From positions 868,001-932,000 of the forward strand of contig NZ_LMAF01000001.1 in NCBI RefSeq assembly GCF_001542875.1: a stretch of DNA of 64,000 nt, in the 5' to 3' direction. This DNA comes from Erythrobacter sp. YT30 (GTDB lineage Bacteria; Pseudomonadota; Alphaproteobacteria; Sphingomonadales; Sphingomonadaceae). Below, in pieces: positions 32,393-41,252 of the stretch (positions are counted from its first letter, which is position 1; the number at the start of each line of letters is the position of its first letter). The position numbers and the translations under genes are program-made. The notes beneath the pieces are model-generated. The model saw nothing but the letters and a program-made list of their open reading frames with translations, searched no databases and was not told the DNA's origin.

Positions 32393-33162
32393 TTTCTTTC
32401 AGCCGCAATCAGGAACTCAATGTTGCCTTGTGGACCTGTAATCGGGCTTTGGACAACTCCTTTGATATCCCAGCCAAGCCCCTGCAACCATTCGCGAACT
32501 TCGCTACAAACCCGCTCATGCAGAGCGGTATCGCGCACCACGCCGCCCTTGCCCACTTCCTCGCGGGCAACTTCGAATTGCGGCTTGATAAGCGCGACCA
32601 ACTGACATTCGCGCGCCGCCATCTCTAGCGGCCGTTCAAGCACTTTCGAAAGCGCAATAAAGCTCGCATCGCACACCACCCAATTGCAGTCTTTTGTGAT
32701 GTGGGCGTCAGTGAGTATCCGTGCACTCGTCTGTTCAAGCACAGTCACACGAGGGTCCTCACGCAGTTTCCAGGCGAGCTGATTGGTGCCGCTATCGACG
32801 GCGAAGACATGCTCTGCGCCATTGGACAGCAAAACATCGGTAAAGCCACCGGTCGAGCTCCCGATATCCATCGCAATCGCGCCAGTAGGATCGAGGTCAA
32901 AATGCTCCAAAGCGTGCGCAAGTTTAATCCCGCCCCGGCTCACCCAAGGATGATCGCGACCGCGAACATCGATCTCCGCGTCTTCGAACACTTGCTGTCC
33001 TGGCTTTGAGAGCTTCTGCTCCCCCAGGAAAACCACCCCCGCCATGATCAGAGCCTGGGCCCGTGTGCGACTTTCAGCCAAACCCCGCTCAACCAAGAGT
33101 TGGTCAGCGCGCATCTTCTTAGGCTTGCTGGCTTTTTTTGAGGATGGCGGCGAATTGGTCAT
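32389..33162 (-). CDS. tlyA: TlyA-family rRNA 2'-O-methyltransferase
   Basis: TlyA methylates ribose 2'-O of 16S and/or 23S rRNA (capreomycin-sensitivity sites in mycobacteria). The 257 residues have an S4 RNA-binding domain (MRADQLLVERGLAESRTRAQ) and an FtsJ-like methyltransferase domain with the SAM motif AMDIGSSTGGFTDVLLSNGA and the KPQFE segment. I start at MTNSPPSSKKASKPKK; MRADQL (16 codons later) is equally possible. Earlier in-frame ATGs would overlap the divergent lipoprotein gene. Confidence 0.92.
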   Translation of the reverse strand: MTNSPPSSKKASKPKKMRADQLLVERGLAESRTRAQALIMAGVVFLGEQKLSKPGQQVFEDAEIDVRGRDHPWVSRGGIKLAHALEHFDLDPTGAIAMDIGSSTGGFTDVLLSNGAEHVFAVDSGTNQLAWKLREDPRVTVLEQTSARILTDAHITKDCNWVVCDASFIALSKVLERPLEMAARECQLVALIKPQFEVAREEVGKGGVVRDTALHERVCSEVREWLQGLGWDIKGVVQSPITGPQGNIEFLIAAERN

Positions 33163-33196
33163 GGACGGCTCAACCGATAGCTTGCATTGGGAATGC

Positions 33197-33772
33197 ATGG
33201 AAGCGATCCATTTGAAATGCATCACAGCGCTCGCAATGAGCCTTTCAGCCTGCGCTTGCGTCCCCTCGGTCGATGAGCCCGCTCAGCCAGCCTCACCTGC
33301 ACCAACGCCCATTGCAACGCCAGCACCCGCGCCCACTCCTACTCCAACGCCTGTGCCGGTCGTCAATGAGCCGGCATATGATAATTACCTCGATGCACCG
33401 CAAACGGCGGGGGCATGGAGCTATCGCGATGCGCCGCAGCTCAGTTTTGCGACGTTTGGTGAAATCGGGAAAGCCGCTGTGTTTGGCGTGGAATGTGCCA
33501 AGCCTTCACGCCAGATACGATTGGTCCGCGGGGGAGCCAGTTCAGGACCTCGCGTAATGACTATTCAAACGGAAACGACTGAGCGCACGCTCGATGCGCA
33601 GATATCACCCGATGGACGGCCCATGCTGATGGCGCTGATCCCAGCTGGCGATCCGGTGCTCGATGCGATGGCGATCACCAAGGGCCGCGTATCGATTGGC
33701 GTTGAAGGGATGCGGACACTGTACGTGCCCGTCTGGGTGGAAATCAGCCGCGTGATTGAGGATTGTCGATAA
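33197..33772 (+). CDS. Putative lipoprotein with Pro/Thr/Ala linker
   Basis: A 191-residue product starting MEAIHLKCITALAMSLSACA, with a lipobox LSAC at residues 16-20. Next comes a Pro/Ala/Thr low-complexity linker (SPAPTPIATPAPAPTPTPTP), which may span part of the periplasm. The C-terminal 120 residues are globular without a known motif: AWSYRDAPQLSFATFGEIG, RGRVSIGVEG. GGGA lies close upstream of the chosen ATG; an ATG 12 codons earlier is possible. Conserved-hypothetical type, function unknown. Confidence 0.7.
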   Translation: MEAIHLKCITALAMSLSACACVPSVDEPAQPASPAPTPIATPAPAPTPTPTPVPVVNEPAYDNYLDAPQTAGAWSYRDAPQLSFATFGEIGKAAVFGVECAKPSRQIRLVRGGASSGPRVMTIQTETTERTLDAQISPDGRPMLMALIPAGDPVLDAMAITKGRVSIGVEGMRTLYVPVWVEISRVIEDCR

Positions 33773-33986: not shown

Positions 33987-34016
33987 TTGTCATCAGCGCC
34001 CCGACGACTCAAATAT
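33987..34016 (+). promoter_or_regulatory. Candidate promoter of the small transcription unit
   Basis: TTGTCA and AAATAT are separated by 18 bases. A transcript starting near 34023 would have an 81-base leader before the small ORF and end at the terminator, about 230 bases in all. Confidence 0.4.
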
Positions 34017-34103
34017 GTGCTCGAGGCCAGCGGCGAACGCGGCTCTCGGCCCGCCGGTGAAACGCACGGGTCTTGGCTTACTAGCGCGAAAGGAGGTGAT
34101 CCG

Positions 34104-34160
34104 ATGTCTCATGGTTCAGTAGAGAGGTCGGCAAGTTTCCGCGCGAGGCATATTCGGTAA
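34104..34160 (+). CDS. 18-codon ORF with near-perfect anti-SD complement
   Basis: The ORF encodes MSHGSVERSASFRARHIR: five Arg, four Ser, net positive, and no run of a single regulatory amino acid. In front of it GAAAGGAGGTGATCC (34088-34102) is complementary to 15 contiguous bases of the canonical 16S rRNA 3' tail, with seven bases between GGAGG and the ATG, the ideal spacing. It is followed by a 7-pair hairpin and a 13-pair terminator. It may be a real micropeptide, a leader peptide that measures translation, or a ribosome-binding RNA in which translation is secondary. Not recognised from any family. Confidence 0.45.
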   Translation: MSHGSVERSASFRARHIR

Positions 34161-34212
34161 TTCATCCTACCGAGTAAGGCTTCGTGAGCGGCGCTTACCG
34201 CCGCTGACCATG

Positions 34213-34257
34213 AAAGGGCGTTTCCTGACCGAAAGGCGGAAACGCCCTTTTTGTTTT
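34213..34257 (+). terminator. Strong Rho-independent terminator before ilvE
   Basis: A perfect 13-pair stem (AAAGGGCGTTTCC with GGAAACGCCCTTT), 12-base loop, then TTTTTGTTTTG. It ends 50 bases before the ilvE ATG, so it either closes the small unit or attenuates ilvE. Confidence 0.92.
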
Positions 34258-41177: not shown

Positions 41178-41252
41178 TGGGGTGTAGCCAAGTGGTAAGG
41201 CACCGGTTTTTGGTACCGGCATTCGCAGGTTCGATCCCTGCCACCCCAGCCA
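41178..41252 (+). tRNA. tRNA-Gln (anticodon TTG)
   Basis: All arms fold: acceptor TGGGGTG/CACCCCA, D-arm GCCAAGTGGTAAGGC, anticodon arm CCGGT-TTTTGGT-ACCGG with TTG in the loop, T-arm GCAGG-TTCGATC-CCTGC, discriminator G and an encoded CCA. It reads CAA and, by wobble, CAG. Confidence 0.98.

Follow-up and report, generated by a model that had tools for sequence, protein, structure and literature searches.

The window, by which we mean the whole 64,000-nucleotide (nt) stretch of Erythrobacter sp. YT30 DNA analyzed here, carries a small RNA unit with an open reading frame (ORF) that appears to be kept for its length and not for the peptide it would encode. By alignment, the unit is a diverged relative of the Caulobacter sRNA CC2171 (Rfam RF01867). 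The RF01867 family itself is known; the fixed-length, peptide-free ORF is what we would call the surprising new part. Comparison across genomes indicated an apparently translation-linked RNA group, much wider than CC2171, with a rare pattern in which the length of the ORF is kept and the peptide is not.

Architecture of the unit and its 16S complement

The initial annotation had described a compact transcription unit in which an extended Shine–Dalgarno (SD) sequence precedes an 18-codon ORF, and all of its elements are present in the sequence. Its 7-pair hairpin and 13-pair terminator recur in the predicted fold as well. The features, with the kind of evidence for each, are as follows.

33987–34014, + strand: promoter-like block TTGTCA-16-TCAAAT (sequence), with a putative transcription start near 34021
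34021–34087, + strand: 5' extension predicted to form hairpins of its own, a feature of the window's sub-clade (alignment, fold)
34080–34248, + strand: full-length match (1–159) to RF01867 CC2171 (50.3 bits; gathering score 75)
34088–34102, + strand: extended SD GAAAGGAGGTGATCC, complementing the 16S 3' tail (sequence)
34104–34160, + strand: 18-codon ORF, peptide MSHGSVERSASFRARHIR, from ATG (34104–34106) to the stop TAA (34158–34160)
34110–34119, + strand: 5' arm of helix H1, CATGGTTCAG, running from codon 3 through codon 5 and one base into codon 6 (own-against-foreign pairing)
34145–34183, + strand: hairpin H3, whose 5' arm carries the stop codon at its inner end (fold, own-against-foreign pairing)
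34187–34205, + strand: 7-pair hairpin, 34187–34193 with 34199–34205 (predicted fold)
34204–34212, + strand: 3' arm of H1, CTGACCATG, immediately 5' of the terminator (own-against-foreign pairing)
34213–34257, + strand: intrinsic terminator of 13 pairs (34213–34225 with 34238–34250), then TTGTTTT (sequence, predicted fold)

The 7-pair hairpin and H1 compete, because the final bases of the former overlap the 3' arm of the latter. The RNA of the window (177 nt) had a fold z of -5.98, and 0/200 shuffles were as stable. A generic terminator scan that allowed loops of 3–8 did not pick up the 13-pair terminator. A TTG-N-TCA(A/C/G)A block recurs upstream of 56/126 sphingomonad-type copies (one after simple shuffling), and a generic sigma-70 scan detected no + strand promoter at the unit. 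Caulobacter-type copies mostly have, in place of the 5' extension, a CAACAA-like stretch a few bases 5' of the SD. The motif counts for this region (35/127 and 35/126) come from two differing strict patterns and are lower bounds.

The 15 contiguous 16S-complementary bases reported in front of the ORF are real. The stretch GAAAGGAGGTGATCC (34088–34102) is complementary to GGATCACCTCCTTTC, and the perfect 14-mer AAAGGAGGTGATCC has a single occurrence in the 3.2-Mb assembly, plus two one-mismatch sites, with 0 in the backwards control. The 16S rRNA gene, and with it the genome's own tail, was not detectable in the assembly of the window's genome (G000), where it is perhaps unassembled, so the complement was deduced from relatives. 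A search for 16S ends in 19 alphaproteobacterial genomes gave GGATCACCTCCTT in three, GGATTACCTCCTT in eight, and no match in eight. A Sinorhizobium 16S-processing paper contains a 39-mer RNA oligonucleotide that begins GGCUGGAUCACCUCCUUUCUAAGG and shows GGAUCACCUCCUUUCU; we take this to be the 16S end of S. meliloti (PMC6943124). The genomes with GGATTACCTCCTT tails rather than GGATCACCTCCTT were G245, G257, G345, G353, G442, G449, G462, and G519; seven of these eight had SD-like matches, which were the 16S end itself in six and a stretch with no start codon in G257.

Across loci admitted with up to two mismatches, the 15-mer was perfect in 112/132. The remaining loci held 22 SD substitutions (a count that leaves out one non-element, L179), 17 of which were A→G or C→T transitions that preserve a G-U pair with 16S; coming from related loci, they support selection on the 16S complement itself but are not proof of it. 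The outer half of the SD, GAUCC, extends past the usual SD. An ATG, GTG, or TTG follows the SD directly in 130/132 loci, with the proviso that the search patterns favored such starts. Two loci without a start codon (L135 and L179) are not evident members, yet are inside the 132-locus counts.

Distribution, relation to CC2171, and genomic neighbors

A permissive Rfam search aligned the unit with positions 1–159 of the 159 of RF01867 (50.3 bits, E 8.4e-10), and the alignment covers the SD–start block, H1, and the terminator. We consider the unit a relative because coverage, architecture, and graded scores agree; over the class, RF01867 scores run from 90 to 27 bits. We file it as a diverged relative and not as a member of RF01867 because 50.3 bits falls below the gathering score of 75 bits, and at Rfam's own threshold there was no match at the unit. 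The unit also differs in its 5' extension and in having an ATG and 18 codons, whereas Caulobacter-type copies mostly have GTG and about 20–26 codons. Two weak Rfam matches (mir-7552 and STnc250) both overlie the terminator hairpin and were taken as chance. Elsewhere in the window, a tRNA gene (41178–41249) was the sole Rfam match at gathering score. Our literature search, by that name and by Rfam number, returned no study of what CC2171 does, and no description of an ORF or a 16S complement in it; other names may exist.

Relatives of the unit are, as judged from sequence searches, found throughout the Alphaproteobacteria. In the window's own family, blastn located the unit in 125/149 genomes. 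RF01867 itself matched 61/289 class genomes (nine above the cut-off) and 1/14 control genomes, the one being Caulobacter. When the search pattern was extended to the start codon, with up to two mismatches allowed, it occurred in 70/289 class genomes. In a phylum sample, the same pattern hit 31/51 class genomes and 4/149 outside the class, all four with two mismatches, and its backwards control hit 3/200. A scan of named genomes with an exact pattern (GGAGG to codon 3) gave at least 120 loci; 80 titles among the matches listed comprised 78 that name a taxon group and two that say only Proteobacteria. We take the 78 named groups to be alphaproteobacterial (e.g., Sphingomonas, Brevundimonas, Bosea, Methylobacterium, Roseomonas, and Azospirillum). 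A class-wide count based on the 15-mer only (172/385 genomes) was rejected as a measure of distribution, since many matches were opposite-strand 16S 3' ends, and was replaced by the pattern with the start codon.

We examined 90 family loci from the 125 blastn-positive genomes; three were without the core pattern (L081, L088, and L089), leaving 87. Duplicates L114 and L118 were excluded, and 252 loci were reduced to 244 distinct copies, which comprise 130 sphingomonad-type copies (defined by ATGTCTCATGGT), 78 Caulobacter-type copies, and 36 others. One genome of the window's family (G091) has a copy of each of the two main types, at C1:805112 and C1:2922049.

One option raised in the initial annotation was a translation-sensing leader, or attenuator, of ilvE. 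In the window, ilvE does start ~150 bases 3' of the ORF stop, with the terminator in between. Within flanks of ~1–2 kb per side, however, ilvE was found at only 38/87 family loci and at 0/45 loci outside the family, and its position varies (37 downstream, with the match beginning 219–1017 nt from the SD, and one upstream on the other strand). The ORF also lacks any string of codons for Leu, Val, or Ile. We therefore rejected the ilvE leader, which is largely refuted and which we rate as scarcely probable. The annotation's own view that classical Leu/Val attenuation is not supported agrees with the ORF, which has one Val codon, one Ile codon, and no Leu.

Other neighbors change as well. The gene 5' of the unit in the window is lipoprotein-like and was present in the flanks of 73/87 family loci; a putative uvrB (8/87) and a putative DUF2721-like gene (13/87), both named from their sequences, also occurred. 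None of the five neighbors sought (ilvE, lipoprotein-like, uvrB, DUF2721-like, and tlyA) was found at the 45 non-family loci, and the largest neighbor cluster among 102 loci of other types had at most eight loci. The terminator, the separate promoter-like block, and the changing neighbors point to a stand-alone RNA gene. The lipoprotein-like gene of the window (33044–33772) is proline-rich and has no Pfam family at cut-off.

Frame, length, and peptide of the ORF

Search design limits what the copies can tell at the start of the ORF: selection of the sphingomonad type by ATGTCTCATGGT makes codons 1–4 uninformative there, and for many loci the start codon and codons 2–3 lay within the search patterns, so that part of their conservation follows from how the loci were found. 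The searches placed no condition on ORF length, the stop, later codons, the H1 3' arm, or H3.

The sphingomonad-type ORF is exactly 18 codons long in 116/130 distinct copies, and the other two frames have no such length. Among 113 distinct sphingomonad-type ORFs, the stop is TAA in 70, TGA in 35, and TAG in eight, and the bases of codons 16–18 vary at 0.27–0.61. Caulobacter-type ORFs span 14–30 codons in 77/78 copies, compared with 12/78 and 25/78 in the other frames. The amino acids behave differently: pN/pS over codons 6–18 of the sphingomonad type was 1.28 in frame (95% bootstrap 0.88–1.96), the two alternative frames giving 0.82 and 0.77, and it ranged over 0.94–1.19 across four Caulobacter-type length classes. 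No conservation of amino acids from codon 6 onward was detected by pN/pS, and the peptides of the two main types have little in common beyond MSH. Of the 87 family loci, which were found by blastn and not by motif, 83 share the first four codons (ATGTCTCATGGT) without a single base difference, which suggests an RNA-level constraint there.

We conclude from this comparison that the start, the stop, and the distance between them matter and that the peptide mostly does not. Because start, stop, and length are kept while the peptide varies, the act of translation, rather than its product, would seem to be what counts. The ORF noted earlier thus is, on comparative grounds, under selection as a frame (18 codons in most sphingomonad-type copies, closed by any of three stop codons), and we infer that it is translated.

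Several loci deviate from the usual length. At L128, L130, L225, L254, and L267, the SD–start block (MSHGA...) leads into an ORF of 56–59 codons for an exported-looking small protein; two of these loci, L225 and L254, come from records titled Azospirillum. Pfam gave no match for L128 and L130, and a third long-ORF variant reached DUF6520 at E 0.19.

Helices, alternative folds, and possible function

Pairing was evaluated on 233 loci with a start codon and a scan-detected terminator, which were thinned for later tests. We compared arms from the same locus with arms from foreign loci, a design chosen to avoid alignment artefacts; since the sequences are related, all p values given here are optimistic, thinning notwithstanding. 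H1, which joins codons 3–5 to the bases before the terminator, was stronger between own than between foreign arms at 27 diverse loci (-8.49 vs. -7.07 kcal/mol, p 0.0004), as well as at 61 Caulobacter-type (p 0.0018) and 73 sphingomonad-type loci (p 0.0202). The test over all 161 loci (p 0.0002) was driven largely by differences between types. Control regions gave p 0.99, 0.79, 0.94, 0.28, 0.39, and 0.22 in the tests by type, and 1.0 and 0.69 when all loci were pooled. At some of 30 diverse loci, H1 paired no better than foreign arms did (ranks up to 1.0). Pairing of H3 at the stop codon was supported with p 0.0002 (90 loci) and 0.0032 (70 loci), with controls at 0.14 and 0.79.

A further pairing would mask the SD. 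The 19-base initiation region paired with the ORF interior beyond dinucleotide shuffles in 54 Caulobacter-type representatives (mean z -1.48, p 3e-9), and the corresponding mean z for 28 sphingomonad-type representatives was -1.04 (p 2e-7). When the 14-base SD alone was set against the region up to the terminator, mean z was -1.12 for 43 non-family loci and -0.05 for 85 family loci, so that masking in these sphingomonads was not significant. SD masking thus appears weaker in the window's clade, and the result depends on the test set-up. The mask partner contains CUGGA in 28/54 Caulobacter-type representatives, and in its fullest form, CCUGGAUC-N3-GCCUCC (CUGGAUC-N3-GCCUCC), it resembles the 16S tail CUGGAUCACCUCC.

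The long-range helix is a feature of RF01867 with support from comparison in each of the three sets above, but it is absent from the minimum-energy fold of the window RNA, in which its pair probability is 0.0 and forcing it costs +4.8 kcal/mol. Its probability exceeded 0.5 in 49/127, 39/76, and 10/30 loci, and forcing it cost on average 4.1, 5.3, and 6.4 kcal/mol in the three types. A nested fold should hold either H1 or the masked SD, and not both, because the two cross by geometry. The RNA may switch between folds; alternatively, the energy model may misjudge one of these pairings.

The reading that we favor, if tentatively, is a small RNA that is transcribed on its own, ends in a terminator, and would have its working state set by translation. 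Without a ribosome, the RNA would be folded with its SD masked or with H1 closed. The SD of 14–15 bases would let the 30S subunit invade, elongation through the fixed number of codons would unfold H1 and the mask, and the terminating ribosome would be parked at H3. How much of the RNA is open would in turn track free-ribosome or initiation capacity, and candidate outputs are pairing with other mRNAs, RNA stability, and 30S binding itself. Comparison shows the sequence features and pairings in this scheme; that a ribosome binds and translates the RNA, that the RNA switches, and that it has an output are steps that we infer.

A more far-reaching version, which we regard as doubtful, is that the RNA might be a class-wide alphaproteobacterial sensor of ribosome availability, in which the 30S subunit and the RNA's own interior would compete for the SD and the ORF would act as a sequence-free ruler. 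Translation of the ORF would set which of two folds forms, and a regulatory part would be released or hidden as a result. Cells are thought to track ribosome availability mainly via ppGpp and ribosomal-protein feedback; if it does report ribosome availability, this RNA would sense a quantity tracked mainly by other means.

Published data bear on the translation-coupled reading from several sides. A row labeled RF01867 for Mesorhizobium huakuii MH_s33 gives what we read as a 215-base sequencing product; as we read its columns, this would be expression of a CC2171 relative (PMC5596092). A Caulobacter study states that its ncRNA regions, as a set, are untranslated, which weakens the translation-coupled reading (PMC4117421). 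In S. meliloti, 33% of 54 non-annotated translated small ORFs detected by Ribo-seq sit on annotated sRNAs, so translated sRNAs would not be rare in that species (PMC10117765).

The alternative that weighs most with us, although we think it improbable, is a plain non-coding base-pairing sRNA of the CC2171 kind, with the SD and the ORF as by-products of constraints on the RNA. Rfam files the relative CC2171 as an sRNA, and both the identical first four codons and the statement on Caulobacter ncRNA regions would fit; yet such an RNA would not be expected to keep a TAA, TGA, or TAG at one distance while the adjacent codons vary, nor to place a start codon directly after the SD in nearly every locus, even allowing for search patterns that favored it. 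Rather less likely still is a ribosome decoy, the sequestering RNA among the options of the initial annotation, which would bind the 30S subunit via the 16S tail and lower translation, as 6S RNA binds RNA polymerase. Conservation of a 14–15-base complement far past the usual SD speaks for it, but a decoy has no need for a fixed-distance stop codon or for self-masking of the SD. 6S RNA mimics the binding site of a central machine, the polymerase. We draw the parallel as an analogy and claim no homology: the window's unit would address the ribosome, not polymerase, and has an ORF with a stop.

To an mRNA for a functional micropeptide, another option of the initial annotation, we give the same low credence as to the decoy. 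A conserved frame and stop, the common MSH start, and the exported-looking longer ORFs at a few loci speak for it; it is disfavored because the amino acids from codon 6 are not conserved where frame, stop, and length are, as the in-frame pN/pS values and the scant likeness of the two peptide types past MSH indicate. We consider it very unlikely that the RNA is a sponge for sRNAs whose seed resembles the anti-SD, for example that of alpha-R8, UUUCCUCCCU. Caulobacter does have a sponge RNA for that seed, CrfA (PMC12559287), but by inspection the conserved GAUCC half of the SD matches the 16S tail and not the alpha-R8 seed, and conservation of the ORF would be left unexplained.

A small RNA with its state set by translation, as favored here, has partial counterparts among known systems. 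Like rnTrpL/peTrpL of Sinorhizobium meliloti, it is a small alphaproteobacterial RNA with a short ORF, translated in rnTrpL and known from sequence in the window (PMC10117765). Unlike the window's unit, with its extended SD and no fixed downstream gene, rnTrpL is leaderless and serves as a trp attenuator for a gene downstream of it. In dual-function sRNAs such as Spot 42, an sRNA-sized transcript carries an ORF of 15–30 codons. Their peptide acts, whereas that of the window's unit is not conserved (in-frame pN/pS above 1).

A further peptide subtype was seen at L115, L119, L142, and L169, whose ORFs contain EQPP or EQPS; the DNA behind these residues (GGAGCARCCTYC) is short, one half being SD-like and the other anti-SD-like.
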